A stretch of 64,000 bases of DNA from positions 2,542,001 to 2,606,000 of the forward strand of contig JANCIK010000011.1 of NCBI GenBank assembly GCA_028532985.1, written 5' to 3'. This DNA comes from Stropharia rugosoannulata (Eukaryota; Basidiomycota; Agaricomycetes; Agaricales; Strophariaceae). Shown here piece after piece: positions 1 through 26,941 of this stretch; positions within the stretch are counted from its first letter, which is position 1; each line of letters begins with the position of its first letter. The notes beneath the pieces are model-generated. The model saw nothing but the letters and a program-made list of their open reading frames with translations. It did no database searches and had not been told where the DNA came from. A program made the position numbers and the translations under genes.

Positions 1-236
1 ATGAGATCCAGCGGAGAGGCGCGCCTAGCTGAAAGCGCTCAGCGGGGGCTGATCGTGTGATTACCGCATATGGAAAAATTATGTCCGAATCAGGTATTGG
101 CACCGACAATACATAGTGCCTAACTAGATACTTGTCATTTCAAATAGCAAAGGAGGCACCACATGTAATAGCCATTTACTCTGGTTACTGTAACAAGGGT
201 ACCCTACGGAGTAAACCAAGGAAGGGGCGCAATACC

Positions 237-781: not shown

Positions 782-850
782 GTTGGCATATACGAATACA
801 GACAGAGGGAGTTATATTATATACGAAGACGGTCAGCGCAGCGGACCACC

Positions 851-3707: not shown

Positions 3708-3712
3708 TGATG
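3708..3712. repeat. Target-site duplication of the copia element, left copy (TGATG)
   Basis: TGATG precedes the left LTR and is repeated at 24914-24918 after the right LTR. A five-base duplication is typical of copia integration. Removing LTR to LTR plus one copy restores the reading frame of accessory gene 1 of element C. Confidence 0.92.
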
Positions 3713-4009
3713 TGTTGGGAAGTACGAGTGAATACTAACTCAGACGTTGACTAGAAGGTAAACAACTGATATACCTGTTGGGAAGTACGAGTGAATACTA
3801 ACTACAGGTATGTAAGTAAATAGAGATAAAATATATATGTAGGATGTACACACCTCAGACGTTGACTAGAAGGTAAACAACTGAGGTGTGTATGTTTGGT
3901 CGTCGAGAAAATAAAACCTACGTGCCATAACATAGGCAAAGAACGGAAGCAAAAGGTAAGTAAATATGGTAAGTATGTTGTATGGAGGTCGAGGGTTCAA
4001 TTCTCGACA
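3713..4009 (-). repeat. Copia 3' LTR (297 bp)
   Basis: It begins TGTTGGGAAG and ends TTCTCGACA on the plus strand, and appears identical to 24617-24913. A purine tract (minus-strand CAGGGGGAG, 4010-4018) abuts it on the inside, as expected for the plus-strand primer. The LTR contains an internal duplication of a block starting TGTTGGGAAGTACGAG, and a hairpin close to one end. Confidence 0.93.
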
Positions 4010-4073
4010 CTCCCCCTGAACCCTTGACCTCTTTTGTACGTAGGAGAAATAAAATAGAAATAAAAAAAAACTT

Positions 4074-7855: not shown

Positions 7856-9062
7856 TGAGAGGTCTACTGCGTAGCTAGACTCGAAATCGCGAAACACAAA
7901 CACACACACACCCAGCGGAGCGAGATCCTATCCCTTAGATCGAGCGAATGCCCTCAACTAAATGGTAGTATAATCTATGCTCTGCTCTGGTCCCCGTTTC
8001 TGGGCGTGCGATGCGCGCACCTCGTGTCCTCTAGTCTTTGTAACAGCAAGTAGTGCCTGCAAGTTCGTTTGTAAGGAGGGGTTTAATTCTAGTAAATCTC
8101 GGATAGAGCCCGGTTGCTAGTGGCGTGCGCAAGGCAAAGTGATAAATGAAATAAGTTGTTTTTAGCGAACGGCTTCGCTGCGCGCACTTCCGGGTCCGGT
8201 GACCTCGTACGATGCGCGGACTCTCCAAAGTCCAACAAATCCAAGACTCTCCAAAGTCTTTCACCCGGCGGTGCAGTCTCACAGTCTAAAACACTACAGT
8301 GCGAGTTTCCGTACACGGTTGTACTGACTCCTCACTGAGCTCTCCAAATGACCCGGTGGCCAGAAGCTATCCAAAACTCCTATGATTCACAAATACTTCA
8401 CAGTTAAAACCCTAACAAAAGCTAAACACAGCCCGCTGACGGCCTGGGACAGAACCCAGCACACAGATCTAGTGGGTAGACAATTGCTTGAATTACTATA
8501 GCCAAGGATACAGGTTTATATGCGATGCGCGCATGTGTACTAATCGTAAGGTAAAGTAAATACTAGCAACGCGTGGCCAAAGGTCCGCGCATCGCATCCG
8601 GGCTTCCCTCTAGTGTTCCAGCCCCTTGGCATTCGCTGCGCGCGTGTCGTTCGTTCCCTCGGGCTTTTGCGCGTCTTTTGATGCGCGCCGCCACGGTCAC
8701 ATGATGTGTGGACTTAGGCAAATTCTGCCTTTGCGATGCGCGCACATGAGATGCGCGCACAGCCCTTCACACCGCCCTTGGTACTCGCTCAGCTGTACTC
8801 ACACCGCACTTCGCTGGTGCTTAACCGTTCTACGCCTCTCCGATCGCTCGCACGGATGACCAGACTATGCACTTTAGGCTGTGCAGCTTGCTGACCGATC
8901 TCTCTCGCAATGCGGTGCGCGCAGGCGCTTATAGTCATAAAGCGCTGATAGCTATAGACTATGAGTCAGGCTCCACTCTAGTCCCTCTGTGTTTCCAGCG
9001 CAGCTGTCCCGCCACTGGGACTTCAGACTGTTTACACCCATAGCCAAAAAGCAGCCCTCTCA
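7856..9062 (-). repeat. Element B 3' LTR (about 1207 bp)
   Basis: Bounded by TGAGAGG and CCTCTCA (short inverted repeats with TG...CA ends). It is a near-exact copy of 22499-23709. It carries at least eight GCGCGC-containing words, mostly in the form GATGCGCGCA. The LTR of element C is alignable with it over several hundred bases in reverse orientation (8341-8520 with 26220-26400, for example), but with other short words in place of these. No long reading frame shows signs of coding. Confidence 0.95.
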
Positions 9063-9611
9063 TCTCCCCCCCACTAAAATCTTGACTGTCCTCAGTCAAC
9101 TTCAGATGCGCGCATCTCATCTTTGATAGCAGTTCACCATTATCCCGTTTTCCTGCCTACGGCACAGCTACTGCATAACGCTGCTACTAAGGCGCCTCCG
9201 CCGGAGTCACTATCGCTATCCATCCTCTTTCCTTCCTTTTCAGGTATCCCCAGCCCGACTTTTCTCGACTAGTTTATTTTAGGCAACCGCCACCGCACTC
9301 ATACGCGCACCGTACCTCCCGCTGACTTCCTTCTTGGGTCATTTGCCTAGTCAGGTCTTTTCTTCTCCTTTTCTGATCCTTGCTGGACCTTCTTTTGGCG
9401 TTACGCTGTTCTAGCATATTGCCGGTAAGTTTACTCGACATGCGCTCACCGCCTTCCACTTCTCTCATACTCCAGAATTTTCTTTTGCTATTCCTCCCTG
9501 CCATATATAAAGCAGCCATTCACGCTACCTTTCCTTCTTCTTTCTCGTCCTCTTTTTACCTATCCTTACTGCTTCCCTTTCTATTCTCCCATCCTAGACC
9601 ACAAGTGCTCC
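9063..9611. promoter_or_regulatory. Element B polypurine tract, palindrome and accessory gene 1 promoter region
   Basis: On the minus strand the tract AGTGGGGGGGAGA abuts the 3' LTR (9063-9075) and would prime plus-strand synthesis. Next to it is the palindrome TTGACTGTCCTCAGTCAA (9082-9099). A TATA-like ATATATAAAG lies near 9503, about 110 bp before the gene 1 ATG at 9612, with pyrimidine-rich sequence between, as in many fungal promoters. Element C has the same layout (25493-25530, TATAAA near 25190). Words of the TGCGCGCA type occur at about 9105. Confidence 0.65.
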
Positions 9612-11619
9612 ATGGCTTTCCGAGGCGTCAGCAAGCTACTCAAGGTTCAACAGGAAGAGCGCCCTTGACCGCGCGGATCATTTCCATCGACTCCGCCCGT
9701 CTTAGCCCAATACGACATTTTCGAGGACTTGGGCGGCCGTGACCGCTGAGCCCGAGGAAGTTAACCAATTCGTGTCCCTTCGCGAACGTTTCGGCCTCGC
9801 AGTCGAAAACCATGTGCGCGCATTTCCTATCGACGCCACTCACCACGCAGGAACGCGCGAATTGGTTCTCCTGTTGTCCCTCCTGGCCACCGGTGACGAC
9901 GACCCAATTTTTGGATGGAACTCGGAGGACATAACCCAGCGCGCCTTATGGTTCACCGAGCCCGACCCCGAGCTAAAACCCGTAAGTCCCCTTTTTCATT
10001 TTCTTTATCATGTGCGCTAACAGATCCTCTACAGCTGACTTCTTACAAGGTCGCTTTCGCTAGCGCCTTCCCTCTGTCTTGGTCGCCGGGGGCTCAGCCA
10101 GAGCCCCGTTTGCAGTACATCCCCCTGGCGCCATCCGACATAGAAATGGCCGCGCCAGGAACGGAGGCTTCTGGCACTGTCGAGACAACAGCCGCGCCCC
10201 CGCCCCCGCCCGAACAAACGCGCGCATCATCCACTCCACCGCCCCCTTCCCCTTCCCCGGTGCCTTCTGCGCGCACCTCACCAGTCCCTACTGCGCCTGC
10301 CCCCATTGCGCCTGCCAAGCGCAAGCGCACTGTTCCTGTACCCCTTTCGTCCCTGCCAGTCCCCGACCTTCCATTGGCTAAGCGTACGCGCTCCGCCCCC
10401 GAGACTTCTGGTAACGTTTCCTTAATCACTGGCCTTTTCTTTCTTCTTGATGCTTTTCTAGTGATCCAAGAGGCCGTAGCCGGTCCTTCTCGTACGCGCA
10501 CTTCTGCCCCCACTTCCAAGAAACGCGCGTCGCGCACTAAGGTGGTGCCTTTGGAGGTGGTCCCCAGTGGCCTCCCCGAGCTTCCTCGTCTGGTAGGCGT
10601 GGACAACTCAAAAGTTGCCTACCAGTCTACATATCCTATCTATAATCTCCTCCCCGGCGTATATTCCGCGTCGCTTGCCTTGGCGGGCAAGCCCTTGCCT
10701 GACGCCATTCAGATGCGCCAACTGCCTTCCGAGGAGCAGCTGAACGCTGCCGTGATCGTACGTCTCGTGTTCCCTTTTAAAATTTGTATTTATCTAGCTA
10801 ACTCTTTCCCAACCCTAGCCCGGGTTTTCTTGCTCTCTTTGCGGGCGTCCTCAGGACGAGTCTTCCGATACCGCTTCTCACAAGACATTTTGTCTCCTGC
10901 GCGGCCCTGGCAGGAAATGCGCGAGTTGTCGCTTGAGCAATCAGGGCCCTTGTCTCCATACGATGACCAGTACCGAACTCGACAGTGCCCTTGAGGGGAC
11001 TTCTGGCTGGCATCGGACTTCTCCCCGTGGTATGCGCGCATCCTTTATCTTACTTTTCCTTCCACTTTGTTAACTTCTCTTCTTTTCAGAACTTCAAGCT
11101 TCCTTCGCTCGTCTCGAGGCCTATGGTCAGCAGGCGCGCGCCGCGGAAGAGTCCCGCCGAGGCCTTCAGCGCCTGTACTTCGCCGAGCTGATCCAGCTCG
11201 TCCAGCTTGCGCAAGCCATGGCTGCGACCCTCCCTACGAACGTCGTGATAGGCGCGCGTTTCACTGATTGCGAGACCTTTGACGCCTTGCGTCATATGGA
11301 TCTCCCTGCTCTCTGCGCGTCATACGATGCGCTTTGCCAGCCTCTGGACCCCGACCATCCGACCGACTTCGTTCCCTCTTCCTCCTTTTACGATCCCGCG
11401 CACCCTCGTCAAGATCCTTCATCTTTCATCCCCGCCCCCCAACCTTCTAAAGCCTCCAAGGTCCGCGCCTCGGTTTCTAAAAATAAAGGCAAGGGTAAAG
11501 GCAAAGGCAAGGCGCCTGTTCGATCCTACAAGTCTTCTCCCGTCGTTGTCGACGACTCAAGCCCCGAGGCCTCTGCTGAAGAAGAGGCTGTTAACGAGGG
11601 CGATAATATGGAGACCTGA
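9612..11619 (+). pseudogene. Element B accessory gene 1 (Cys-cluster protein), first exon frame-broken
   Basis: Exons are 9612-9981, 10035-10410, 10462-10757, 10855-11029 and 11090-11619. The start MAFRGVSK matches MAFRNFDR of element C. Between about 9655 and 9745 the frame compared with C is broken three times by small indels, one a likely loss of GC within a GCGC run. From about 9740 all later exons read through with canonical introns. The product has a Pro/Ala-rich region, basic KRKR segment (possible nuclear signal), conserved KVAYQSTYPIYNLLPGVYSA domain, compact Cys cluster (CLLRGPGRKCASCRLSNQGPC), helical segment LYFAELIQLVQLAQAM, Lys/Gly repeat, and acidic end with VVVDDSSPE. A nuclear DNA- or chromatin-binding role is inferred. 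The breaks may be real or assembly errors; the rest of the gene looks conserved. Confidence 0.72.
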
Positions 11620-12121
11620 GTCTTGCTGCGGGACGCGCATTTTGGCGCCTGTTTTCTTTTTATCTTTCTTTCTTGTGCCCTCCCTTACTATTCTATCTAG
11701 CATATGTAGAGTAGCTTTGTCTAGTATTATATGCTTTGGAATTTACAATTCTCTTCTTATCTTCCTCCTGTGTGATCCTAAGCATTTTTATTTCTTCTTA
11801 AGGTAATCCCTAACAGCTAGCTTTCTTTTGAGCGAGTACAAGTGCGATGCGCGCACATTAGGAATGCACGCTTGCTTGTATGTGCCCATCAACTTCTGTT
11901 CCGGTTTTCCTACAGTACTTGGGCGAGTATCAGTGCGATGCGCGCATATGAAGTGATGTGCATATGCGTATCCGCTAGCCCACTGCTACTTCTACCCTGC
12001 ACTTCTGATCCTTCTGCCGTATCTCCTTAAGCTGCTAGATTTATCTCTGCTTGGCTAGGCCATCTCTCCCCCCCACTATAAATTCAACTGTCCCCAGTTG
12101 AGAGTTTCTTTACTCTCTGTT
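11620..12121. promoter_or_regulatory. Spacer between accessory genes 1 and 2 of element B, with internal purine-tract copy
   Basis: The plus strand shows CTCTCCCCCCCACTATAAA (12063-12082) followed by the palindrome CAACTGTCCCCAGTTG (12085-12100). This nearly repeats the tract-plus-palindrome beside the 3' LTR (9063-9099). The embedded TATAAA lies about 45 bp before the gene 2 ATG. It is conserved in element C (1354-1390). The rest is pyrimidine-rich with GATGCGCGCA words near 11845 and 11935. Confidence 0.6.
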
Positions 12122-12602
12122 ATGGCTCTCCGATATCAGCGCACCGCTGTTGCTCGCCAATTCACTGTTTTACTGAGACAACTCGCCGTTCATGCGGAGC
12201 TCGCAGAGGACTGCGACAACGGCCCTTTTCACTTTCCTCTACAGTCTGCTCAGTCCCTCGTGCGCGCACTGGTAAAGTCCCTATGTTCATGCAAGCGCTT
12301 CCTCTGCTGACGTTTTCCTCCAGGATCGCATTACACTGCCTTTGCGCTTTATCGATTTCAACCGCCAATACCTGTCTTTAGTCATGACGATCGTGTTTTA
12401 CGAAGGCCGCGCTCAGCGCAGATTCAGCGATGATCATTTCGATGCGCGCATGCTCAGCAATGCCGCTCTTCACATTCTCGATCGGTACAGCCATCTTGGC
12501 ATGCCTTTTCACAATCTCCCACCCTCGGAACCAACAGGGACCGCCATTTTAGACACAGATCCCGACGCTGCCCTTGTAGTAGATGATATTAGCTACGATT
12601 GA
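12122..12602 (+). CDS. Element B accessory gene 2, about 142 aa, unknown function
   Basis: Exons are 12122-12271 and 12324-12602, with a canonical intron ending TCCTCCAG. The protein begins MALRYQRTAVARQF and ends DPDAALVVDDISYD. It is homologous throughout to 851-1323 in element C with the same intron position. The region SDDHFDARMLSNAALHILDR contains GATGCGCGCATG over Asp-Ala-Arg-Met, where C reads Asp-Pro-Arg-Leu, so the word coincides with amino-acid change. No known domain, signal peptide or membrane segment is visible. It lies on the strand opposite gag-pol, 72 bp before gene 3. The intact frame and conserved intron suggest a working gene of unknown role. Confidence 0.82.
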
Positions 12603-12673
12603 GCCCGTGCGCGGCTCTGATGGATCGTTTAGTGCTATATATGATCCTTCAAATGAACATGTCTTTTATCATC

Positions 12674-13222
12674 ATGCCCTCCTTCGATACCGAAAGTAAT
12701 CTCCTTCAACGCGCAAGGTCCGATCCTTCCTTCTTGCGCTTAGCTGCTCTACCCAAGCGGGCGCTAGCTGATATTCCGCTTGATGACCATGAGCGCGTCT
12801 GCCGCATCTACATAGGCGCCCTTCATTTTATTCTTGAGGCCGCGACTGAACCGCTGCTCCCCATGACCGTCTGCCTAGACATGATGCGTCATGTTCAAGA
12901 CCATGCGGTGCGCGCATGTCCCCTTTTTCCAGCCTTCTCGTGCACAGCTCTGACATCCTTGTAGCGGGCACTGGCGCTAACCGAAGCTACCAGTCATTCG
13001 CCTCGCATCTCGCACTTGTGCGCTCAACTTCACTATAGCGAGCTCGTCCTGCGCTTGTGTGGTACCACTGATGCAGAGTGCTACGGCACCCTCCCTCACT
13101 CTGAACACTTCCAACAACTTCACTATGCCGCCCAGGTCTTTTATCAGGAGGAATTCTTTCCTGTAGGCCTCTTCTTCTCATGTGCTGCGCTGACCCTGAC
13201 CATCACTTCTTAGGATGTTTAA
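12674..13222 (+). CDS. Element B accessory gene 3, about 146 aa, unknown function
   Basis: Exons are 12674-12907, 12965-13162 and 13214-13222. Lengths and intron phases are identical to the homologue at 237-781. The protein begins MPSFDTESNLLQRA, includes RVCRIYIGALHFILEA and LCAQLHYSELVLRLCGTTD, and ends FFP-Asp-Val. The first intron starts with GTGCGCGCATG, so the dispersed word forms the splice donor. An alternative reading through the last intron would give a longer tail, but the shared nine-base terminal exon in both copies argues for splicing. No domain is recognised. The ATG at 12674 is chosen because the other copy starts at the same residue. Confidence 0.8.
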
Positions 13223-13715
13223 TTCCCGAACTGACACTCTGCTGTCTTTTCATTGATAACTATCTATACTCATAGCTAGCATCTATTCCTTGGTACATGT
13301 GTCATGACCCTGTATTTGAAATAAGACTGTCGGGTAACATTGTTATGCACTTTCGGCATCAATCCCAAAGCAGACATCATTTTCCCAAACGGGGAAAGAC
13401 CTGCATCTCTTTTGATGCGCGCACCCTTTTGCTGCGATGCGCGCACGATCCTCCCACCTCTTGTCGCTATATGGGCTCTTGTATTCAGGTCCCCTCCATC
13501 CCACTCAATCTCCGTGAATGTAACGTCAGACAGGTGTAGCCTTGTGCTATGACCCATCTGGACCTTTTGTTGAGTCCCTCTTTTCTTAACTCCTTGGGCC
13601 TGCTGCTCAGTCACCAGCTGCGCGCAGCGCTGATCATCTCAGTGAATGCTATATAAGCGCTCGCCGTCTCTGTATGAGCGCATCGCATCTTATTCCTACT
13701 TTCTCAACCACCACT
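13223..13715. promoter_or_regulatory. Spacer and presumed promoter of accessory gene 4
   Basis: This is a pyrimidine-rich spacer with a TATA-like CTATATAAGC near 13650, about 60 bp before the gene 4 ATG. Words GATGCGCGCA (about 13415 and 13435) and CTGCGCGCAGCG (about 13618) are present. No gene is evident. Confidence 0.5.
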
Positions 13716-15028
13716 ATGGCTACTACTCATGCTCCTCTTTTCAACTTCACCAATGTCAAGCATCAGCTCTCGCTGATCCAGGACATTCGCGGGTTGGCCT
13801 CTGCCACTCCTGCGAATTATACCGGCAGCCTGGAGCTGCTTGCTGTCGATTTGGTGCGCGCATCGCGCGGTTCCTTTGTTGTATGTTACTGATTCCGTCT
13901 GGCACGATTGCAGAACCGCTGGCGCGACGCGCACGGCGGTATCACTCGCGTTATAAACAACAATGAAGCTATCGAGATACTCAATGAGACTCGCGCCATA
14001 TATACGTCGCTCGAGGCTGACCACCACATTCGCTCCTTTTCCCCTGCTGCCAACGCATTCATCAACTTGCATGAACAAGTCCTCAAGGCTAAGGCTGCCG
14101 CTTCTCGTCAGCGCACCCATACCCCTACTGGACCTGTGCGCTCATATTCCTCTCCTAACCCTTTCTATACTTAATCCCCTTTTTGGTGCGCGCAGCGCAA
14201 CGTTCGCGTTCTTACGCGTTCCGCAACTGCGGACCTTGAAACCGCCTCCGCGCCTGGAGGTACTACATCTCCTGACTCTGACGATGACAAGGTGTGGCTA
14301 ACCTTGGTCTCTTACCAGACATCACTAACATGCAACTTTACATGCTCCTCAAAAAGATGGCCCTCGACAATAAAGTTGAAGCCGCGACTGAGGGAGGTCC
14401 TCCCAGCAGGCAGCATACACCCGAGCCGAGCCCTAACAAGAAGCGCGCCGCGCCTCCTGATACTCCTAAACAGGTGTGTGTTTGACCCGTCTCCGCTGCG
14501 CGCCAGATTCTTATAGAAATACCAGCGCGAGCGCGGAGACACTCCTGGTTACCGCTCTCGTCCCCTTGGTCGAGGCATGACTTATCGTCAAACCGAGCTT
14601 CGTCGCTCATTCCGTGACGCCGCTGCAGGTGAGGCCTCTCCTAAGAAAGCCAGGCTGGGCTCAGAGGGCGTTCCTACGTTCCCCGACTCTCCTTTTATTA
14701 TGCAAGGTGCGCGCACCGCACCGTTCTCTTACTAATCTTTTCTAACCTTTCTCCCTCAGGCACTTCTCTTGTTTTGGACAATGACAAGGTCAATGCTTGT
14801 CTTGATGCCGCCGCTAACCTCCTTAAGGAACCCCTTAATACGGGTAACCCTTCCGAGTTGGTGACGCGCCGCCTCATTGGTGATTTACAAGCAGAGATCA
14901 TTTGTGATCTCCACAAGGTCGACTTCATCCTCAAGCGCCGCGCACTCCTCGTCGAGCAGCTCGTCATCTTGCAGCGCAGCCTCGACGTTACTGGCGTTAC
15001 TGCCACCGAGGACAAACCGGCCCAGTAG
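13716..15028 (+). CDS. Element B accessory gene 4, about 365 aa, unknown function, one apparent frame break
   Basis: Exons are 13716-13853, 13914-14135, 14196-14473, 14517-14706 and 14760-15028. The product begins MATTHAPLFNFTNVKHQL. It has helical stretches, an acidic patch (SPDSDDDK), a segment NLGLLPDITNMQLYMLLKKM, a Pro/Arg-rich middle, and a helical end (LKRRALLVEQLVILQRSL). Between SPDSDDDK and ANLGLL (about 14292) one base appears missing, because the codon frame changes without a usable intron. Two introns start with GTGCGCGCA and another ends in GTGCGCGCAG. Its counterpart in element C would lie left of the window, so conservation cannot be checked. It converges on the integrase frame, whose stop is about 125 bp away. 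A start at 13674 is also possible. Function unknown. Confidence 0.65.
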
Positions 15029-15154
15029 ATAGCCTGGCTCAATGTGCGCTGCGCGCCTTAAAGGGGCGTCTGTAGCTAGCTCTCTTTGTATTCCCCATCT
15101 TCTTTACCCAATATATTATATTGTGGTCGCTTTCTTCCTACGATGCTCGCATCC

Positions 15155-17107
15155 CTAAGTGTCTTCTTCGCCCCAGTCATCATCGTCTTCTTCATCTTCT
15201 TCCACTGTAAGCGCACCGCTTCCCGAGGGTACACCAGGCTCATCAAAGATATAATCTTTGGGAATAGCTGGTTCATAGTCCGGTGCCTCTAGCATTTTAG
15301 CGAGGTTCTCCCTGGTCTGATCAATTATATCATCCAAGCCGTCCGGTAAGCGCAGCTGCCTTCGTGCAAAGTAGGGAATGAGGCGGAACGCCGCTACCTT
15401 ATCCTTCAACACAGAGCCGTCCATCTCTGCCACTAAGTATGCTCCACCGTCTTTTCGTGCGATAACGATGTAAGGCCCGTTCCATCGTGCGAGCATTTTA
15501 CGGTTCAGACTGGATTCTATGCCCGAGTTCCTCATTAGCACTACATCTCCTGGCTTAAACACATAGTCACGGATTTTAGCCGAGTGCTTCTTTTCAAATG
15601 CCCTGATCGCATCTCTTTTCGTCTTTGATACTCGTGCGCGCATCTCCTCTACTGTGTCGCGATGTTTGGCTAGTGCGCGCGCGCGATACCCTACTAACTC
15701 CTCCGTAGTCAGCACGCGATCTGGTAGTTTCACCAACCAAGTCGCTTCTGCTATGTCGAATGGTAGTATGGGGTGCGCGCCCGTTACCATGAAGAATGGG
15801 GAACACCCAAATCCTCGTCGCACAGTGATACGATCCGCCCACAACACATGGTAGAAGAATCTACTCCAACGCTTATGCGCGCCCTCTGTCCCTCCACACG
15901 CTTTCCACAACATCTGTCTTATGTCCCAATGAGGACGCTCTATTTTTCCATTCGCTTGCGAGTTGTACGCGGAGATAGTAATCCCTGTAATCCCATACTT
16001 CTTTTCTAAATACTTGAGCGCTGCGCGGAACGGTCCACCGTTATCTGTGATGATTTCTTGTAGACAGCCCCAACGGCAGATAATGTCCTCGAATATCCAC
16101 TGCGCTATCGCACGGGCATTCTCTTTCTTTAATGGCCGTCCTTCCGCCCATGAGCTCAGCGCACATCTTCCGTGCACTATGTAATTATACCCATTGGAGG
16201 CCGGGGACATGTGCATAGTGTCTGCGTGTAGTTGCTGGAAGATAGACGGCGTGTGTGTCTCGGTGCGCGGGATCTGGATGATAGTCTTCTGTCTTAACTG
16301 ACAGACATGACATGTTTTCACATACCAGTAGACATCCCTTTCCAACTCCGGCCACCAGAAGCGCTCAGCTAGCAGTTTGCGCGTAGCGTACGCTCCTCTG
16401 TGCCCCAAGCTGTCATGCGCTGAGCGCAGCATGCGTGTCCGCTGCGCCTGATCTATCACCAACTTATGCGCGTCATCTATGGATCTCCGGTACATCCGCC
16501 CATCCTTGTCTAAGAAGAAGTTGCGAGCGTTCCTCGTAAAGTTCTGATATTCTCGCTCCGTCATGCCTTTAGGCCTAGTGGTTGGATTCTGCAACCAGTA
16601 GCGTATCATCGGCAATTTCTCATCCATATCTTTTCCTGCAGACGTCCTGTTGCGCTCATCGTACTCCTCATCCTCCAGATCCTCTATTTTGGAGTCGGGT
16701 ATTGCATGTGCTAGTATGAATTTCTCTAAATACTCGCGCTGCGCGAGCGGCACACTCTCTTTCTGTATGAAGTCCCGCACGGCCCGCTTTTCCGCTTCCG
16801 TCTCTTTCCGTGCGCGCTCGAGCTCCTGCTGGAAACAGCCTATAGAGCGCGCTTCTGGTAACTTGCGCGTGGTGGGACCTTCAAACAACTCGTTGAGTAG
16901 TCCTGTATATAGATACCCTCCGCGATCATCGATCTGTTCCTTGAATTCCTCAAAGTCCAGGGGATCTGGGTCATCTTCATAGACTTTCTCGTATTCGAGC
17001 GGTCCCACCTCCTGATCATCATCTTCTTCGGAGTGCGTACGCCTCATCTCCAGGTTGCCCTTCCCTACGCGATAAACCATCCGCACCAAAGGTTTTGCCC
17101 GCAACAT
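15155..17107 (-). CDS. Gypsy integrase frame of element B (650 aa)
   Basis: An acidic linker (about residues 20-60) follows the RNase H frame. The zinc-binding HHCC domain is at about residues 231-269 (His231, His236, Cys266, Cys269). The catalytic triad is Asp296 (HADTMHM), Asp355 (TDNGGPF) and Glu390 (NGKIERPH), with the usual 35 residues between the last two. A GPY/F-like module (RWNGPYIVI) follows near residue 560. The end is acidic, and no chromodomain is evident. It overlaps the RT frame by 89 bases in another frame. It probably enters by reinitiation at an internal ATG or by frameshift. It would insert the cDNA into the genome. All active-site residues are present. Confidence 0.92.
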   Translation of the reverse strand: MLRAKPLVRMVYRVGKGNLEMRRTHSEEDDDQEVGPLEYEKVYEDDPDPLDFEEFKEQIDDRGGYLYTGLLNELFEGPTTRKLPEARSIGCFQQELERARKETEAEKRAVRDFIQKESVPLAQREYLEKFILAHAIPDSKIEDLEDEEYDERNRTSAGKDMDEKLPMIRYWLQNPTTRPKGMTEREYQNFTRNARNFFLDKDGRMYRRSIDDAHKLVIDQAQRTRMLRSAHDSLGHRGAYATRKLLAERFWWPELERDVYWYVKTCHVCQLRQKTIIQIPRTETHTPSIFQQLHADTMHMSPASNGYNYIVHGRCALSSWAEGRPLKKENARAIAQWIFEDIICRWGCLQEIITDNGGPFRAALKYLEKKYGITGITISAYNSQANGKIERPHWDIRQMLWKACGGTEGAHKRWSRFFYHVLWADRITVRRGFGCSPFFMVTGAHPILPFDIAEATWLVKLPDRVLTTEELVGYRARALAKHRDTVEEMRARVSKTKRDAIRAFEKKHSAKIRDYVFKPGDVVLMRNSGIESSLNRKMLARWNGPYIVIARKDGGAYLVAEMDGSVLKDKVAAFRLIPYFARRQLRLPDGLDDIIDQTRENLAKMLEAPDYEPAIPKDYIFDEPGVPSGSGALTVEEDEEDDDDWGEEDT

Positions 17108-19086: not shown

Positions 19087-19087
19087 A

Positions 19088-20356
19088 TCAAATCATCGAG
19101 GATTGAAAATCCTGATCTGCGTTAGGGTTTTCCGTTGTGCCAGGGTCCTGTAATTTAGGTTCGCGCTGCACAATCTTGGGACCACACCCTCGGTTATAGG
19201 TGGGTACTACCAGTTTGCGCTGTGTGTTGGGATCGGTGAGCGTAAGCTCAACCGTTCCATCGCCGCGCGTCTTCACATTGCTCTCCGTGAGGATCTCGAA
19301 CGGCCGGCCCAAAAGCACCTCATAAGCCGCTGCGCTGATGACATGCACTTGTAAGTACACTGTCAGCCCGTTAAACACAAACGGTACGTTGCGCGCTAAG
19401 CCCTTGGTGGATTCCACCTGCTTATTCGCGCTCTGCATTCGTATAGTGAAGTCCGGGTCCCAACTAAGTCCTAAGCGCTCAGCGGTGTCCTGTGCCATTG
19501 ACACAATCTGCGACCCACTGTCGAGCAACGTCTCCGCGTGTCCCTTGCCGTTGATGAGCGGAAATACCGCCTTCAGATGGTGTGATTCGCGCGCCACAAT
19601 AAGTCCCTTAGGCTTTTCGCCCGGCTGCAGAGTCGAGACATACTGTTCATACGGGTCTTCCATGATAATGGTCCCCGGTTGCAGTCCGCTGCGCTCATCT
19701 GAGCAAGTAAGGAAAGTGGCCACTGGTAGCTCATCCATCTGCATAAACTCCTCTTCTTCCTCTTCTTCTGCTAGCTGTGCAATAGCCTCGTCTACTTCGC
19801 GCTCTTCCTCATCATAGTCTAATTGTAGTACGCGCATCGTATTCAGATCCAATGGTACCTTTCTCGGTACTATGCGCTCAACGAACTTTCTTCTGAAACC
19901 TGCAGTCGATATGCCTAACAACTGGCCCTGCGTGATCTCGATCTTCTGATTTTCTAAGTGTTTGAGGACTGCGTCAGCCTGCGCTTCATCTTCGATAGGT
20001 GCGCGCAGCTTATAAGCAGGTTTCCTCTTCTCTACTACAGGTATGGGTTCTTCCCTAACCTTAGGTTTTACTTTCTCTGGTACGCGCAGCGGAGGTACCA
20101 TTACATATGGCACTGCTGCTGGTCGTGCACTAGGCCCAGTCTTTGCAGGAACCTCAAATACTACTTTCTTCTTTACTGGTGCGCTGCGCGCACCTTGCTC
20201 CTCCACTACTTCTCGCAACTCATCTTCCTCCTCATCACTCGCGTCCTCAACTGATGCTCTGGGTATATTTCTGATTGGTAACTTCTTATTTGCGCCCTCC
20301 GGGTTCTTGGGTTTATCAGAGCCGCTACGCATAACTCTGCCCGCGTTTCCCTTCAT
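19088..20356 (-). CDS. Gypsy protease frame of element B (about 422 aa)
   Basis: The N-terminal half is basic then acidic (QLAEEEEEEEF) and probably a spacer. The aspartic protease domain is in the second half: HAETLLDSGSQIVSMA holds the active site DSG, and YEVLLGRPF is the usual C-terminal motif. It would cleave the polyproteins. The first ATG is eight bases after the gag stop, in the minus-one frame. Read-in from gag by frameshift at the GATTGA junction is an alternative. The stop overlaps the start of the RT frame (TGATG), which suggests coupled termination-reinitiation. Confidence 0.88.
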   Translation of the reverse strand: MKGNAGRVMRSGSDKPKNPEGANKKLPIRNIPRASVEDASDEEEDELREVVEEQGARSAPVKKKVVFEVPAKTGPSARPAAVPYVMVPPLRVPEKVKPKVREEPIPVVEKRKPAYKLRAPIEDEAQADAVLKHLENQKIEITQGQLLGISTAGFRRKFVERIVPRKVPLDLNTMRVLQLDYDEEEREVDEAIAQLAEEEEEEEFMQMDELPVATFLTCSDERSGLQPGTIIMEDPYEQYVSTLQPGEKPKGLIVARESHHLKAVFPLINGKGHAETLLDSGSQIVSMAQDTAERLGLSWDPDFTIRMQSANKQVESTKGLARNVPFVFNGLTVYLQVHVISAAAYEVLLGRPFEILTESNVKTRGDGTVELTLTDPNTQRKLVVPTYNRGCGPKIVQREPKLQDPGTTENPNADQDFQSSMI

Positions 20357-20361
20357 CAGAC

Positions 20362-22314
20362 TCAATCGAAACCCTGACTGAGCGCAGCGTCACGTTCGGC
20401 TTTCATAGTCGCTATTAACTGACGCTGTTCCTCTATCACCTCCTCAGGCGTCTTTGCCGATGCGCGCTCCTTCAGGAACGCCTTCTTACTTTCCAACTCT
20501 TGTTGAAGTGCGCGTATCTGCTCCTCGTAGGTCTCGTCCAAGGAACTGGCCGGTTGGTACATCTGCGAGTATACCATGCTAGGAGGCATACCCATGTATG
20601 ACGGATGGACCGGTGCCATATACGCTTGCTGCGCGGGCGGCCCATTCTTCTTATGCCATTCGTCGACGCGCTCTTTGATCGCGCGCGAAGGGTCCCAAGG
20701 TATCGATGACCCGTCAGGTAACTGTAAGCGCCCCGCCTCAGTAATGACAATCCTCCCCGCTGACAAGTCTTGCTGCCGTACAATGCACTCAGCAACCACA
20801 TGTCCCGTCTGCTTGCAGTAGAAGCAGCGAGGCTCCGGGCGTTGTTGGTATTGGAAGGGCCTAGGCGGCGCTCCACCAAAACTCGGTGCGCTCATGGGCA
20901 TCATGGGGGCTACTGGTTGCACAGGCACCGACATCGGTGCGGCGCGCGCAGCCATGACATTGCGGATAATGTCCTCCAACTCTTTCCTACTCGACTCCTT
21001 TGACTTCGCCACTGTCTTCTCCACTAGCGACAAGGTATCCTTGAAGGAAGCGACGAACCCTTTCAGGTCCTCAATCTCTCCGCGCAGCGAACCAACATCC
21101 GCGGCCTCAGTCTTGATGGCGGGCACCGGCATGAGTCCATCAGTGCTATCGCGCCCTAGGCTCAGCGTAGTGCTTGGGTTCTTGGTGCGGGCCATTTGTT
21201 CCGCCATCTCGGCTACTTGTTTGAGAGGGTACATGTCCTCGGTGCGCGCTTCTACCGTCGCCCCAGTAGGTGCGGTGAACTGTATATTGCGCTCAGTTAA
21301 GAACTTGTCGAACGATGCGCGCGTCGTGTAATCAATGTCCAGTTTATTAAACAAACGATCCCTGAACCCCGCAGTGAGACTATTGGTGAAGTAAGTCACC
21401 AAGGTATGATTCGCGAGCAGAGTAGGCGCCTTTGTGAGCTTAGCGGCCTCGGCCAAGAACGCGCGCTTGAAGTCCAGCAACACCTGGAGGTCTTCCTCCG
21501 AGATGCGCTGATTCTCCTTGCAGAGCTTCTTGAGCCGCGCGATGGACCCTGTCTGAATGCTGATCACCTCCGGGTACTCGTTGAGAATCATTTTCTTGAG
21601 CTCCGCGTACCCCTTGGTATCATAACCTGGTAGATTCTTCCACTCCTCCGCCGTCTGCATGGGTACATATTTGATTACATATCCTCTCTTCTCATCGTCC
21701 TCCGTCACCTCCGCGCGCTTAAACCAATCCTCCAGGTCCTCGAAGTACCGCGGCAGCTCATCGCGCTCTGCAGCAGGATCGAAGCTCGGCGCGCCGCGCG
21801 CACCGCGTACTGGCATGGACATATCCTTAGGCATAGTTTCTGGTTCTCGTGGGGGTGAATTCCGTTCGCTTTCTGAAAGATCTGACAAGTCTCCTTCAAA
21901 TATATCTCTCGCTACGCGCTCTGCCTCACTTTCGCTATTTTCCGCCGTGCGCTGCGCGGATGTCTTAGCAGTCCCAAATACTTCCGAGAATGGAGGAGGG
22001 GTGTCTTGGGTAGCTTGGCTATCAGAAGTACCGAATGGTGCGGTTTCAAGTGTAATATCACCGTCCACTAATTGGTCTTCTGATTGAATGCCAGATGGTG
22101 GTCCCCAAAATCCACTAGTCCCTACTCTTAATTCCGAGTCGCTTTCGGTGAGCGTACCTGGGATGCGCTGCGCTAATCCCTGAGTCTCGATCTGCAACTG
22201 CGCTTCCTCCCTCGCTCTTTTCTTTGCTTTTCTGTCTCGCGTCGGTGTAATTACCAACGGCTCTACCAGCTCAGCGTTTTTCTTGCTCCTCGTGGTTCTC
22301 TCGCGTGAAGGCAC
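20362..22314 (-). CDS. Gypsy gag of element B (650 aa)
   Basis: The N-terminal third is polar and probably disordered. The capsid-like helical region runs from about residue 180 to 370 (RYFEDLEDWFKRAEV ... LLDFKRAFLAEAAKL ... FRDRLFNKLDI). A CCHC zinc knuckle, CFYCKQTGHVVAEC, lies near residue 510. The end is a coiled-coil stretch (EEQIRALQQELESKKAFL). It would assemble the particle and bind element RNA. It starts about 185 bp inside the 5' LTR. The frame is intact. Its codons contain many GCGC-type words. Confidence 0.92.
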   Translation of the reverse strand: MPSRERTTRSKKNAELVEPLVITPTRDRKAKKRAREEAQLQIETQGLAQRIPGTLTESDSELRVGTSGFWGPPSGIQSEDQLVDGDITLETAPFGTSDSQATQDTPPPFSEVFGTAKTSAQRTAENSESEAERVARDIFEGDLSDLSESERNSPPREPETMPKDMSMPVRGARGAPSFDPAAERDELPRYFEDLEDWFKRAEVTEDDEKRGYVIKYVPMQTAEEWKNLPGYDTKGYAELKKMILNEYPEVISIQTGSIARLKKLCKENQRISEEDLQVLLDFKRAFLAEAAKLTKAPTLLANHTLVTYFTNSLTAGFRDRLFNKLDIDYTTRASFDKFLTERNIQFTAPTGATVEARTEDMYPLKQVAEMAEQMARTKNPSTTLSLGRDSTDGLMPVPAIKTEAADVGSLRGEIEDLKGFVASFKDTLSLVEKTVAKSKESSRKELEDIIRNVMAARAAPMSVPVQPVAPMMPMSAPSFGGAPPRPFQYQQRPEPRCFYCKQTGHVVAECIVRQQDLSAGRIVITEAGRLQLPDGSSIPWDPSRAIKERVDEWHKKNGPPAQQAYMAPVHPSYMGMPPSMVYSQMYQPASSLDETYEEQIRALQQELESKKAFLKERASAKTPEEVIEEQRQLIATMKAERDAALSQGFD

Positions 22315-22469
22315 CGTTCCAAAGGATGGTCTGGCTTCTTCTGGCTCGGCGAGCGATGAAGGCGCAGGAAATTTGCCTCGCTTGTTACTCGTCCCCGTTT
22401 TATTTGAAATTTTTGTAATTTATTGTAATAGGCGCAAGCCGTAGTTCCCGAAACACTAATTGAGATTTC

Positions 22470-22498
22470 TGAACCTTCCCCTCGCGGTGGGCTCCAGA
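22470..22498 (-). promoter_or_regulatory. Likely primer-binding site of element B
   Basis: Two bases inside the 5' LTR the minus strand reads TGGAGCCCACCGCGAGGG. It starts with TGG as needed to pair with the CCA end of a tRNA. I cannot name the tRNA from sequence alone. The rest of the 185-bp leader before gag shows nothing else clear. Confidence 0.55.
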
Positions 22499-23709
22499 TG
22501 AGAGGTCTACTGCGTAGCTAGACTCGAAATCGCGAAACACAAACACACACACACCCAGCGGAGCGAGATCCTATCCCTTAGATCGAGCGAATGCCCTCAA
22601 CTAAATGGTAGTATAATCTATGCTCTGCTCTGGTCCCCGTTTCTGGGCGTGCGATGCGCGCACCTCGTGTCCTCTAGTCTTTGTAACAGCAAGTAGTGCC
22701 TGCAAGTTCGTTTGTAAGGAGGGGTTTAATTCTAGTAAATCTCGGATAGAGCCCGGTTGCTAGTGGCGTGCGCAAGGCAAAGTGATAAATGAAATAAGTT
22801 GTTTTTAGCGAACGGCTTCGCTGCGCGCACTTCCGGGTCCGGTGACCTCGTACGATGCGCGGACTCTCCAAAGTCCAACAAATCCAAGACTCTCCAAAGT
22901 CTTTCACCCGGCGGTGCAGTCTCACAGTCTAAAACACTACAGTGCGAGTTTCCGTACACGGTTGTACTGACTCCTCACTGAGCTCTCCAAATGACCCGGT
23001 GGCCAGAAGCTATCCAAAACTCCTATGATTCACAAATACTTCACAGTTAAAACCCTAACAAAAGCTAAACACAGCCCGCTGACGGCCTGGGACAGAACCC
23101 AGCACACAGATCTAGTGGGTAGACAATTGCTTGAATTACTATAGCCAAGGATACAGGTTTATATGCGATGCGCGCATGTGTACTAATCGTAAGGTAAAGT
23201 AAATACTAGCAACGCGTGGCCAAAGGTCCGCGCATCGCATCCGGGCTTCCCTCTAGTGTTCCAGCCCCTTGGCATTCGCTGCGCGCGTGTCGTTCGTTCC
23301 CTCGGGCTTTTGCGCGTCTTTTGATGCGCGCCGCCACGGTCACATGATGTGTGGACTTAGGCAAATTCTGCCTTTGCGATGCGCGCACATGAGATGCGCG
23401 CACAGCCCTTCACACCGCCCTTGGTACTCGCTCAGCTGTACTCACACCGCACTTCGCTGGTGCTTAACCGTTCTACGCCTCTCCGATCGCTCGCACGGAT
23501 GACCAGACTATGCACTTTAGGCTGTGCAGCTTGCTGACCGATCTCTCTCGCAATGCGGTGCGCGCAGGCGCTTATAGTCATAAAGCGCGCTGATAGCTAT
23601 AGACTATGAGTCAGGCTCCACTCTAGTCCCTCTGTGTTTCCCACGCGCAGCTGTCCCGCCACTGGGACTTCAGACTGTTTACACCCATAGCCAAAAAGCA
23701 GCCCTCTCA
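22499..23709 (-). repeat. Element B 5' LTR (about 1211 bp)
   Basis: Near-identical to 7856-9062. The differences I could see are a GC insertion near 23587 (AAGCGCGCTG versus AAGCGCTG) and a change near 23640 (CCACGCGCAG versus CCAGCGCAG), both at GCGC words. As the 5' LTR it should hold the promoter for gag-pol on the minus strand. Confidence 0.95.
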
Positions 23710-23713
23710 ACGG
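23710..23713. repeat. Target-site duplication of element B, right copy (ACGG)
   Basis: Matches 7852-7855; see the left copy. Confidence 0.88.
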
Positions 23714-24506
23714 TTGCTTCGAGGGCCCGTACAGCGTCATCAGGTTTTGTGGGTGCCTTGGATCTCGCTTCCCTTATTGCTAATCTCTCGGCATGAGTTG
23801 TTAGGTTCATGATGACTTTATTGAGGTCGATTTCCCCGTACATCGGAGTGATGATTGGGTCCCACGAGTCCGGGAATGAATCGAGGAGTTTTGTTATGAA
23901 TCTTGTGTCCGAGATCTTTGCGCCAGCTTCATTGGCACGTTGGCGTAGTAAGCGCATCTTTTCTATATGGCCATCCTCCCCTGCTACCTTCCCGCCTTCG
24001 GTAAGTTTGCACGAAGCCAGTTCCTCCTCTCTGAGATTTCTAGCTCGGTCACTTGTTCTTCCGTACAGGTTTTGCAGGTGGTTCCACGCATAGTACGCCG
24101 ATTTGCTTGGATCAATGCCCGATCCATGAATATCAACGACATTAATGAGAATCGAAGATAATGCTACATTCTCGCGTAGTTCGTACTCGAGGGCGCTTGG
24201 CGATGTGGAGTGGAGTGGTGTAGGTCCTATGACAGTGGGTACATTGGGTCTTTTGGACGTTCCTTTTGGGGTAGTAGTGGGCTCCTTTTCGGATGGTTTT
24301 GGATCATCATCGGTATCGCTGTCAATGTCTTCCGAACTCTCAATACATTCCGGTGGGATATTGATCTTTCCACACCAGTACTTGTGTAGTCCCTTGGGTT
24401 TCCCATGTGCTTCCATAAGAAGCTTCCAGTGAGTATAGTTCTCATAGCCTCGAAGACGGTCTTTCTCGGCTAGAGTGATGGGTGAGAGAATTGATGAAGA
24501 CAACAT
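23710..24506 (-). pseudogene. Copia gag, N-terminal part, cut by element B
   Basis: The frame starts at ATG 24506 (MLSSSILSPITLAEKDRL) with the motif YENYTHWKLLMEAH typical of copia gag N-termini. An acidic linker and a helical capsid-like region follow (YAWNHLQNLYGRTSDRARNL ... FITKLLDSFPDSWDPI ... LTTHAERLAIRE). At 23710 it runs into element B. Its continuation is at 7855. In the undisturbed copia element this would be the particle protein; here it is separated from its zinc knuckle and pol. Confidence 0.88.
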
Positions 24507-24602
24507 GCTTGTTTAGGTTTAATTTTGGTTCGGGTTCGGTATTTCGGGTTCAGTGAGTCAATAACTAGTCGTGTATGTCTGTTTTGAGTTAACACTTGCA
24601 CA

Positions 24603-24616
24603 CAGGGCTCATAACC
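24603..24616 (-). promoter_or_regulatory. Copia primer-binding site matching the initiator-tRNA-Met anticodon arm
   Basis: The plus strand reads CAGGGCTCATAACC directly beside the LTR. This equals the anticodon stem-loop of fungal initiator tRNA-Met as I know it from yeast, with anticodon CAT in the middle. It implies priming from a cleaved half tRNA, as described for Drosophila copia, instead of the tRNA 3' end. Confidence 0.8.
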
Positions 24617-24913
24617 TGTTGGGAAGTACGAGTGAATACTAACTCAGACGTTGACTAGAAGGTAAACAACTGATATACCTGTTGGGAAGTACGAGTGAAT
24701 ACTAACTACAGGTATGTAAGTAAATAGAGATAAAATATATATGTAGGATGTACACACCTCAGACGTTGACTAGAAGGTAAACAACTGAGGTGTGTATGTT
24801 TGGTCGTCGAGAAAATAAAACCTACGTGCCATAACATAGGCAAAGAACGGAAGCAAAAGGTAAGTAAATATGGTAAGTATGTTGTATGGAGGTCGAGGGT
24901 TCAATTCTCGACA
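24617..24913 (-). repeat. Copia 5' LTR (297 bp)
   Basis: Appears identical to 3713-4009. It should contain the promoter for copia RNA on the minus strand. Confidence 0.93.
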
Positions 24914-25103
24914 TGATGAGAGCGCGAAGTTCCTCCAAGCGGGCAAAGCTCTCTTCGGAAGGGGCAGCGGACCCAGCCAGCTGTTCGAACTCATCATATA
25001 CGGCCAACGCTGGGCGGAGGCGGCGGAACCGATCGGCCTGGTCGAGCTGGGCTTCGACGCGCTCTTTCTCGCGCTGGCGACGGTCGAAGTTTCGGAAGGC
25101 CAT
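24914..25103 (-). pseudogene. Element C accessory gene 1, detached 5' exon piece
   Basis: ATG at 25103 starts MAFRNFDRRQREKERVEAQL, a charged helical segment with coiled-coil character, continuing ADRFRRLRPALAVYDEFEQL. It is cut at the copia TSD (24914-24918). It joins in frame to 3707 when the copia element is removed. A TATAAA sequence lies near 25190, about 85 bp upstream. Matching residues are found, frame-broken, at 9612-9780 in element B. Confidence 0.78.
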
Positions 25104-25530
25104 GAGTACTAGAGAGGATAGTGGGGCAGGGGGTCTGCAGGAAGGGAGGGAAAAGAAAGAATGGGGAGGGATAGAAAGCAGTACGCGATGTTTATAAGAC
25201 AGAAGTTCGCTCAGCGAAAGAATTTTCTGGAAGATAAAATAACGGGTGGCGGCGTCACATAAACTTTCAGGTAATCTACATGGAGAGCGGCAGTTCAGAA
25301 GCGACGGTGCAATGCTGAAAAGGGGAAGGAATATCCTTAAACGGAGGAAGAACCAGATAACAATGGAAGTAACCAGCGGAGTCGACTGAGAACTAAAAAT
25401 AGGCAAATAGGCGCCGGGGAAGCTGGAAATAGAAAATGAGGCACTAAAAGTGCACGCGGGACAGTACTAAGGTCTAAAAATACAGGAGGAGCTTGACTGA
25501 GGACAGTCAAAATTTTTAGTGAAGGGGAGA
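25104..25530. promoter_or_regulatory. Promoter of element C gene 1, palindrome and polypurine tract
   Basis: The palindrome TTGACTGAGGACAGTCAA (25493-25510) is followed by the tract AGTGAAGGGGAGA, which abuts the 3' LTR. The layout mirrors 9063-9611 of element B. TATAAA (minus strand) lies near 25190. Two or three CAGCGGA-type words are present. No other gene is seen. Confidence 0.6.
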
Positions 25531-26941
25531 TGACAGGCCTGCGTTTACACCAAGGCTGTAAGTGGCCACAGCGGGCGGTTTGGGCTGGAGTGCAGGGGTA
25601 CAGCGGAGCGGTGACTAGCCTGGTCAGCCGTCTCAGCGCTCAGCGCGTGCATCACAAATCATCACGCGTGTGCTCAGCGGGCAGTTGTGTGGGGTTCAGC
25701 GGACTGTATAGGCCATAAGTACACAGCTGAAGTACCCGGAATAGCAGTCAGCGGAGCACATAACGGTTACTGTCGTCCCAGCAGAAGGCAGGAGTACAGC
25801 TGAGCAGAAAGTATCAAAGGCGACGAGCAGGACTGTGTGTAGACGGCGTCTCAAAGGGACTCAGCGGAACACATCACGAAGGCGAAATTTGCCTAAGTCC
25901 ACTCGTCAGGTGACCGTGGCACGCACGCTGGAGTGTGTGATGCCCGAGGGAATGCATAATGCACACAGCACGGACTCCGCTGGGGAACTTTGGCAGCGGT
26001 AGCCAGGCCTCGATGACCAAGATGGAATCGCGCAGTGGAGTTTAACGGCGTCTCTCGGCGGAGGCTGGTAACACAACAGGATCAGGTTGCGCTCAGCGGA
26101 GTAGCCATCAAGGCGCCCAGCGGAGGCACATGCGCTCAGCGGACCTTTGGTCCGGCGTTGCTAGTATTTACTCTCCACCTAAATTAGTACACAGTGCGCG
26201 TCTATATAAACTTGTAATTGTAACTACGGAAATTAAGCAATTGTCTACCCACTAGATCTGTGTGTTGGGCTCCGTCCCAGACCGTCAGCGGGCTGTGTTT
26301 AGCTTTTGTTAGGGTCTTTACTGTGAAGTGTATTGTGAATCATAGAAGTTTTGGATAGCTTCTGGCCACCAGGTCATTTGGAGAGCTCAGCGGGGAGTCA
26401 GTGCAACCGTGTGAACTCGCGCTGTAGTGTTTTGTGAATTGAGACTGCACCACCGGGTGAACGAGGTTCTGGATAGCCTCAGCGGAATAGGACTTTGGAC
26501 AGTCCCAGCGGAACGACTTTGGATAGTCAGCGGAGCGAGGCACAATTGGGAATACCAGCTTGTGTGAGCATCTGCATCGGTCACCAGACCTCAAACCCAC
26601 TCAGCGGAATAAGCCCCGCGGAGCCACCATCAAAACTATACATTACTATCGATACCCTGCGCTCAGCGGAGATCGCCCAGACATTAATCCGAGACTTCTA
26701 GAATTAAACCCCTCCTTAAAAACGAACTTGCAGGCACTGTACAGCGGACATCTGGACTAAACTTACGAGACTCTTAAACATCACAGTCCGCTCAGCGGAG
26801 AGGACCAGGAGAAGCGTAGACATCTATAATCCGCTTAGCTGAAGAGCGTCGCTCGATCTAGGGGATAGGATCTCGCTCCGCTGGGGTTGTGTGTGTTGTG
26901 TTTTCTTGTGATTCGAGTCTAGCCCCGCGGCAGACCTCTCA
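25531..26941 (+). repeat. Element C 3' LTR (about 1411 bp)
   Basis: Starts TGACAGGC after the purine tract and ends CCTCTCA at 26941. Long stretches align with the element B LTR in reverse orientation. By eye there are about 20 CAGCGG words here, against two in the B LTR. There are no GCGCGC words here, against about eight in B. Confidence 0.88.

Follow-up and report, generated by a model that had tools for sequence, protein, structure and literature searches.

Lineage-specific short words in nested Gypsy-type retrotransposons of Stropharia rugosoannulata and a candidate reader encoded by their antisense module

Introduction

A stretch of 64,000 nucleotides from the fungus Stropharia rugosoannulata (contig JANCIK010000011.1, positions 2,542,001 to 2,606,000, hereafter the window) holds two homologous long terminal repeat (LTR) retrotransposons, B and C, each of which is strewn with a short DNA word of its own. 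This raises the question of why relatives at one locus differ in their words and what might read them. The window was analysed within the 48-Mb genome (20 contigs). The words exceed chance, are constrained in position within a word lineage, or dialect, in both B and C, and differ between dialects. The best explanation overall, to which we assign a probability of roughly 55%, is that a protein with a cluster of six cysteines (Cys6), encoded by gene 1 of an accessory module, reads the element's own word and marks its copies as self.

Results

Element-specific words and their excess over chance

Sites were counted on both strands, each palindrome once, in B (15,854 bp), C (16,140 bp in three pieces), host flank (76,659 bp) and a Copia element at the same locus (5,347 bp in two pieces). 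The palindrome TGCGCGCA was found at 32 sites in B, none in C, one in the flank and none in Copia, and GATGCGCGCA at 18, 0, 1 and 0 sites, respectively. CAGCGGA occurred at 92 sites in C, 7 in B, 6 in the flank and 1 in Copia, while TCAGCGGA had 51 sites in C, none in B, 2 in the flank and none in Copia. The mutual specificity described in a sequence-only reading of the window was thereby confirmed, as were its by-eye LTR counts (8 GCGCGC and 2 CAGCGG in the 3' LTR of B, 0 and 21 in that of C). Counted as a 7-mer, GCGCGCA reached 83 in B, a figure inflated because each palindrome is counted twice. Flank profiles around the words gave G(A/G)TGCGCGCA(C/T)C, which is near-symmetric, for B and CGCTC-AGCGGA for C. 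The words end at the element borders, as that reading had it, GCGCGCA spanning 8012 to 23560 inside B and CAGCGGA spanning -10329 to 2794 and then 24965 to 26877 in window coordinates; nor are they equally common in the host, given the counts above for 76.7 kb of flank.

The enrichment survived a control for composition, the excess in B and C lying far outside dinucleotide (first-order Markov) shuffles. The Copia piece 3713-7855 had no word excess over shuffles. Words had also been reported in codons, and same-protein synonymous-codon shuffles (300 per open reading frame, ORF) upheld this for C, where pol contained 17 CAGCGGA against a shuffle mean of 1.97 (maximum 6) and gag 9 against 1.03 (maximum 5). 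The codon excess in B was small. Its three gag-pol ORFs together contained 3 TGCGCGCA against summed means of 0.40 and 17 GCGCGCA counts against 4.3, but each ORF by itself stayed within its shuffle maximum; the palindrome lies mostly outside these ORFs (3 of 32 inside), and for B this part of the claim is weaker.

Maintenance of words within a dialect

Among 41 matches to the B LTR, 30 loci were taken as B-type copies, two of them B's own, and 28 were compared with B. Non-CpG word positions were mismatched in 3 of 1176 cells, compared to 855 of 27860 non-CpG cells elsewhere, and are accordingly about 12 times less variable. As the copies are related and the cells non-independent, shifted masks were used as a control; 0.26% of 1167 shifts reached the observed low value. 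CpG positions decayed equally inside and outside words (0.058 vs 0.063), and words in decaying copies were lost mainly through CpG changes. For C, five LTR stretches (L036-L040) were fetched out of 62 matches. Mismatch was 0.026 in words vs 0.098 otherwise, with 0.45% of 1993 shifts as low, and of the 18 words in a 2-kb stretch of C, 14, 15, 12 and 15 were kept in L036, L037, L038 and L039, compared to 8.0, 8.2, 7.0 and 9.1 predicted by identity. The variant CAGCAGA of L040, a possible third C dialect at first sight, was ruled out as mostly CpG decay (CpG observed/expected 0.56). CpG change in this copy is uneven (CCG 21/88 and GCG 3/88 in words, 40/233 and 34/373 outside), which context explains in part.

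Word places were also compared across deeper divergence, in 12 stretches fetched beside B and C for 97 matches to gene 1 (two being halves of one place). A B-word excess was present in L042, L043, L044, L046 and L049 and weak in L045. L051 is decayed, L047 lacks the B word (CpG observed/expected 0.38), and L041, L048 and L050 contain too little of the element; L052 is C-like, with 5 AGCGGAC against 0.4 expected. At 80% DNA identity, 11 of 13 words stood at the same place in B and L043 (null 0.35), and at 68% identity 5 of 7 did in L043 and L044. Other pairs of B-word copies shared 3/4, 2/4, 3/8 and 3/7 places, and 2/13 were common with L042. At synonymous sites, the gene 1 copies of B, L043, L044 and L046 have diverged by about 1 or more, several pairs being saturated. 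Since non-CpG word positions are near-invariant in B LTR copies and the same places are kept between B and L043, the words look selectively maintained.

Turnover between dialects and distribution in the genome

B and C align at 76% over gag-pol, and a stretch of the reverse transcriptase (RT) is 96% identical, yet the words differ. Both words are dispersed, mostly align without gaps and differ by substitutions, with some aligned switches such as CGCTCAGCGGAC in C opposite CGCGCAGCGCAC in B. For the full word GCGCGCA no excess of shared places was found (4 vs 2.7 expected within 6 bp, 0 vs 1.5 within 3 bp). The looser half-sites CGCGCA/AGCGCA were shared within 6 bp in 14 of 65 cases vs 7.0 expected, 0.37% of shifts being as high, a signal that is weak because eight combinations were tried. 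As word positions coincide little above chance, the sites appear mostly to have turned over between B and C rather than simply switched. Amino acids were changed at 9/51 codons with the C word, 3/29 with the B word and 120/1121 others, these numbers being small.

Across the genome, with the backward-spelled word as control, GATGCGCGCA had 815 matches vs 49 and TCAGCGGA 2930 vs 1144. Proximity was evaluated on contig C1 as position within 9 kb of B- or C-type matches, using a match list typed by hand. Of 95 listed GATGCGCGCA, 58 fell in the 3.6% near B-type matches and none near C-type matches only; among the first 100 TCAGCGGA, 49 fell in the 3.1% near C-type matches. Elsewhere on this contig, GATGCGCGCA at C1:4673712, 4682864, 4692020 and 4701178 recurs in steps of ~9.15 kb, as a ribosomal DNA-type array might give, and at C1:4751217-4752624 in multiples of 201 bp, a tandem array.

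Gene 1 and its cysteine cluster

Behind pol, B and C have a module that seems to comprise three genes, antisense and with introns (models approximate). The helix exon of C's gene 1 had 97 genome matches, including that of B, when all candidates were scored, and 92 of these were free of stops; the last exon of gene 3, also queried from C, had 95. Within the B group, the ratio of nonsynonymous to synonymous divergence (dN/dS) of gene 1 lay mostly between 0.05 and 0.15, which indicates purifying selection on gene 1 in this group; a single very close pair gave 1.77 on almost no changes.

The cluster has the order C-x2-C ... C ... C-x2-C ... C by pattern in B, D and E (the latter two being families described below) and a homologous variant with altered spacing in C; of the 22 pieces scanned, those with a strict C-x2-C...C-x2-C pattern all belonged to B, D or E. 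Between B and C, dN of the Cys exon was 0.74, vs 0.32 for the adjoining helix exon and 0.35 for the other exon measured, and in 6 of 8 B-group pairs the Cys exon had changed faster than the helix exon. In C vs L052 it had not (0.21 vs 0.27). L052 retains AGCGGA-type words, and its Cys exon shares 71% identity with that of C. At this locus (C7:411798-415255), a C-type LTR (94%) lies close to a gene 1 with a helix exon only 70% like that of C, possibly a module exchange.

AlphaFold predicted a 42-residue helix for the helix exon behind the cluster, at a predicted local distance difference test score (pLDDT) of 86. Gene 1 homologues elsewhere were not found at E 0.001 among 5456 candidates, in a library that may contain few fungi. 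A Pfam scan of gene 1, 2 and 3 fragments, from approximate models, revealed no TET/JBP dioxygenase.

Words and modules in other Gypsy families

Further families were sought by RT, 130 of 294 candidates being scored, and were grouped at 70 to 50% RT identity. In family D (51%), TCGGAAA occurred 19 times in 8.4 kb vs 1.4 expected, with 5 in pol (0.44 expected), 8 in the module (0.63), 6 in the LTR (0.12) and none in the 1.5 kb beyond. A second D piece contained 14 in 4.8 kb vs 1.0 expected and a third 5 in 3 kb vs 0.6, a different word ranking first there; the D pieces are overlapping copies. In family E (70%) the words are of the ACCGGG and CCGGTATAA types, with a clear signal in the LTR and a moderate one in the module. 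A second E copy (L059+L062), tested without its LTR, was within shuffle range, and its LTR words sit in L050. Stretches with CCGGTATAA at about 26-bp steps were seen at C2:1015960-1016318, C4:641216-641575 and C4:671726-671953, tandem subrepeats like those of E LTRs.

No word excess beyond shuffles was found in pieces of families F (63% RT identity), H (57%), I (55%), J (69%) and K (66%). With 99.5% identity over 4857 bp, J and K count as a single family, which leaves five wordless families with Copia included. The J/K element stops some 1.3 kb past pol, which gives no room for a module, and it has neither module nor words. Antisense ORFs directly follow pol in H and I, none being obvious in F; the short ORFs of H (H57, C12:326300-334299) and I (I55, C9:125000-132999) are perhaps a forerunner of the module. 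B, C (as the variant), D and E all have antisense modules with a Cys6 cluster. In the sampled parts, the cluster was thus found in 4 of 4 worded and 0 of 5 wordless families, 1 in 126 when calculated by hand, for families that are related and whose ends are partly unbounded. The pattern was absent from D pieces on contigs C11 and C10 and from E67, all partial pieces. CGG is part of the C and D words, and CCGG of the E words. The expectation of one enriched word per lineage agrees with B, C and D, which have their own word, and less with E, which has a weaker set.

Three odd words beside gene 1 remnants, ATATATCA, CGGTATAA and TCGGAAA at L048, L050 and L041, were considered as new B/C dialects and ruled out, as they lie inside other elements: an E element next to L050, a D element next to L041 and, at L048, a DNA-transposon-like insert with terminal subrepeats by eye. 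The last (C13:1240220-1242415), with ATATATCAC/GGTCTCTA subrepeats, adjoins the gene 1 remnant and may be KDZ-like.

Architecture of the locus

Element B is inserted in the Copia element, which in turn is inserted in C (Table 1). The sequence-only reading had set out both word sets over 7856-26941; B does lie there, but C reaches 10.4 kb left of the window, and 3713-24913 is the Copia element with B nested in it. Pol domains and LTRs mark B as a Gypsy-type element; its 1.2-kb LTRs are 99.6% identical, with the target-site duplication (TSD) ACGGT. In the long pol ORF of C (L001:4319-7921), RNase H (within 554-690) precedes integrase (H2C2, 914-970). The left LTR of C, at C11:2531601-2533015, is 100% identical to the right one, gene 3 of C lies left of the window, and its gene 1 is cut by the Copia insertion. 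In the host flank, neighbouring stretches at 37265-38170 and 39008-39907 of the window are 65% alike, probably a gene duplication.

Table 1. Coordinates of features of the nested elements, in window positions
Feature	Positions	Strand	Basis
Element B, Ty3/Gypsy-type LTR retrotransposon, 15.85 kb	7856..23709	-	LTR self-match, ends, TSD, words, protease/RNase H/integrase domains
B 3' LTR, 6 TGCGCGCA	7856..9062	-	LTR self-match, word count
B 5' LTR	22499..23709	-	LTR self-match
B gag-like ORF	20362..22419	-	ORF; CCHC-like stretch by eye; no Pfam match
B aspartyl-protease ORF	19088..20389	-	ORF and Pfam
B RT/RNase H ORF	17019..19121	-	Pfam names RNase H part; frame differs from integrase ORF
B integrase ORF	15155..17110	-	ORF and Pfam
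B accessory gene 1, antisense to gag-pol, several apparent exons	9706..11619	+	Approximate start
B gene 1 Cys6 cluster exon	10822..11022	+	Cys pattern, exon alignment
B gene 1 helix exon, predicted 42-residue helix and two short helices	11101..11343	+	Genome matches, AlphaFold
B accessory gene 2, several apparent exons, no known domain	12059..13210 (approximate)	+	
B accessory gene 3, several apparent exons, best conserved of module	13716..15028 (approximate)	+	
C middle part, genes 2 and 1 of antisense module; 12 CAGCGGA	1..3712	+	
C gene 1 Cys cluster exon, altered spacing	2572..2766	-	
C gene 1 helix exon	2254..2493	-	
C right part, gene 1 start (minus strand, cut by Copia insertion) and 3' LTR	24914..26941	+	
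C 3' LTR, 16 CAGCGGA, 10 of these TCAGCGGA	25531..26941	+	
Copia element nested in C, interrupted by B	3713..24913	-	LTRs 3713-4009 and 24617-24913

Discussion

Gene 1 of the antisense module would, in our explanation, encode a Cys6, zinc-cluster-like protein, with a long helix behind the cluster in B and C, that binds the short word of its own element at tens of sites, spread over LTRs and module and, at least in C, over gag and pol too. Judging from the sequence, such binding is probable. Crowding of the protein on its own copies would mark them as self and most likely keep them expressed against silencing by CpG methylation, host genes being spared. The anti-silencing effect is argued from analogy and put forward tentatively; it is plausible, as for VANC (see below), because some copies are CpG-decayed (observed/expected 0.38 to 0.56; L047, L051 and L040). 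A shift in the specificity of the cluster would be followed by turnover of the words and so by a new dialect. That the gene 1 protein binds DNA, forms dimers and acts on silencing is inferred; a gene 1 protein reading a DNA word is the simplest way to join constraint, turnover, module and cluster. The wider idea of a self/non-self code, in which one protein-read word stands tens of times in each lineage, in C within codons too, reader and word change together as lineages split, and the whole element serves as recognition surface, in a VANC-like manner of independent origin, falls somewhat short of an even chance.

A number of observations weigh against this explanation. The B word persists although Cys exons are 64-94% identical to that of B (differences up to 36%), and since it is kept despite such divergence within the dialect, word and cluster are not tightly tied; of the proposed co-variation with gene 1, the part that stands is that word families have the Cys module, while fine co-variation was not found. 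Independent contrasts of word and cluster comprise four lineages only. A Pfam scan gave no family for the clusters of L044 (B-type) and C, that of E matching DUF3716 at E 0.061, below cut-off, and the cluster exon of D is recognised by pattern alone. The AlphaFold model of the Cys exon was unusable (pLDDT 47) and gives no support for a Zn2Cys6 fold, and a PDB sequence search with gene 1 returned nothing usable (best E 0.1). The B word lacks CGG. The most decayed C-type copy, L040, kept 6 of 18 words, below the 9.2 predicted by identity. D and E words show no clear genome-wide excess over their backward controls (GTTTCCGAC 533 vs 662, CCGGTATAA 429 vs 387). In E the words are weak outside the LTR, pol not exceeding shuffles, and part of the LTR count consists of subrepeats at about 26-bp steps. 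The 3' ends of F, H and I are unbounded, so that a module further out is possible. Finally, the words have strand preferences, TCAGCGGA in C being 41 sense to 10 antisense and ATCGGAAA in D sense only (16:0), which a plain DNA site does not need.

This strand bias keeps alive an unlikely alternative, namely that the words are RNA signals by which Gag or a module protein reads the full-length transcript and each lineage packages its own RNA. CAGCGGA in the LTR stretches L036-L040 is split 14:1, 14:2, 13:1, 16:2 and 8:0 towards sense, CGGGCTA in E is split 10:1, and words occur in LTRs, module and gag-pol alike. The bias in D comes from the pieces L071, L053/L063 and L068, where GTCGGAAA is mostly antisense (3:9). 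The B word, on the other hand, is palindromic, and the D core TCGGAAA is split 22:16 over three related pieces. Moreover, Gag is nearly alike in B and C by eye, and it is the cluster of the antisense gene 1 that differs most.

It is likewise improbable that the words are sites for host factors of transcription, replication or chromatin, exploited by the elements, with different factors used in different lineages. An activator would act in the LTRs, where words are dense (14 GCGCGCA counts in the 1.2-kb LTR of B), and TCAGCGGA and the D and E words are present elsewhere in the genome. An activator needs few promoter sites, however, not tens across 16 kb including codons; GATGCGCGCA is rare outside these elements, and, within the parts sampled, families lacking the Cys6 cluster also lack a word.

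Reading by integrase or another pol product, for self-targeting or strand transfer, is very unlikely. The words do follow the element and nested insertions occur, as in this window, but the words of B and C differ despite the near-identity of their RT stretches, and B sits here in Copia, not in its own dialect. Equally remote is mutation or replication bias (slippage, biased conversion) in place of selection, which may have contributed the E LTR subrepeats but is at odds with the dispersed, mostly gap-free words of B and C that differ by substitutions, with the low variability of their non-CpG positions and with places kept across large divergence.

If gene 1 reads the words, this would be a second, unrelated origin of sequence-specific self-recognition by transposons, in retrotransposons and in fungi. 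With several dialects and dozens of copies in one genome, the co-change of a DNA-binding protein and its many sites could be studied directly, and short-word tools for directing proteins to every copy of one family would come within reach.

Relation to other systems

Classical Zn2Cys6 clusters have a first loop shorter than the 16 residues of B. The gene 1 cluster resembles the Gal4-type in its six Cys with C-x2-C pairs, in the predicted helix behind the cluster in B and C, and in the CGG of C and D words; it differs in the altered spacing of C and in having no Pfam zinc-cluster match or usable fold model. Fungal Zn2Cys6 proteins typically read CGG triplets, and the Pho7 site is TCG(G/C)(A/T)xxTTxAA (PMC5559640).

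LTR retrotransposons with additional ORFs have genes beyond gag-pol in common with B and C; they were compared by description only, which mentions no dispersed words. A literature search, with most subscription journals outside its scope, gave no fungal or retrotransposon case of lineage-specific dispersed words. Fungal transposons with TET/JBP dioxygenases are alike in bearing genes thought to counter methylation-linked changes, but their carriers are DNA transposons, unlike B and C (PMC12730594).

VANDALs, the carriers of VANC, are Mutator-like (MULE-type) DNA transposons, whereas B and C are LTR retrotransposons with antisense modules and retroelement pol domains. VANC21 is located on non-coding regions with motifs in tandem repeats (PMC5735166), while C words are dispersed and also lie in gag and pol; only E has tandem LTR copies. 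As carrier and motif layout differ, kinship with VANC is not supported, and of the parallel drawn in the sequence-only reading it is the proposed working that is VANC-like, with element-specific words and a fast-changing Cys cluster in the module. Both systems have an element-specific short motif, with different motifs in related families (PMC5735166, PMC10398659). An element-encoded, changing reader protein, proposed here, is established for VANC, whose binding and demethylation have been demonstrated in Arabidopsis (PMC5735166).

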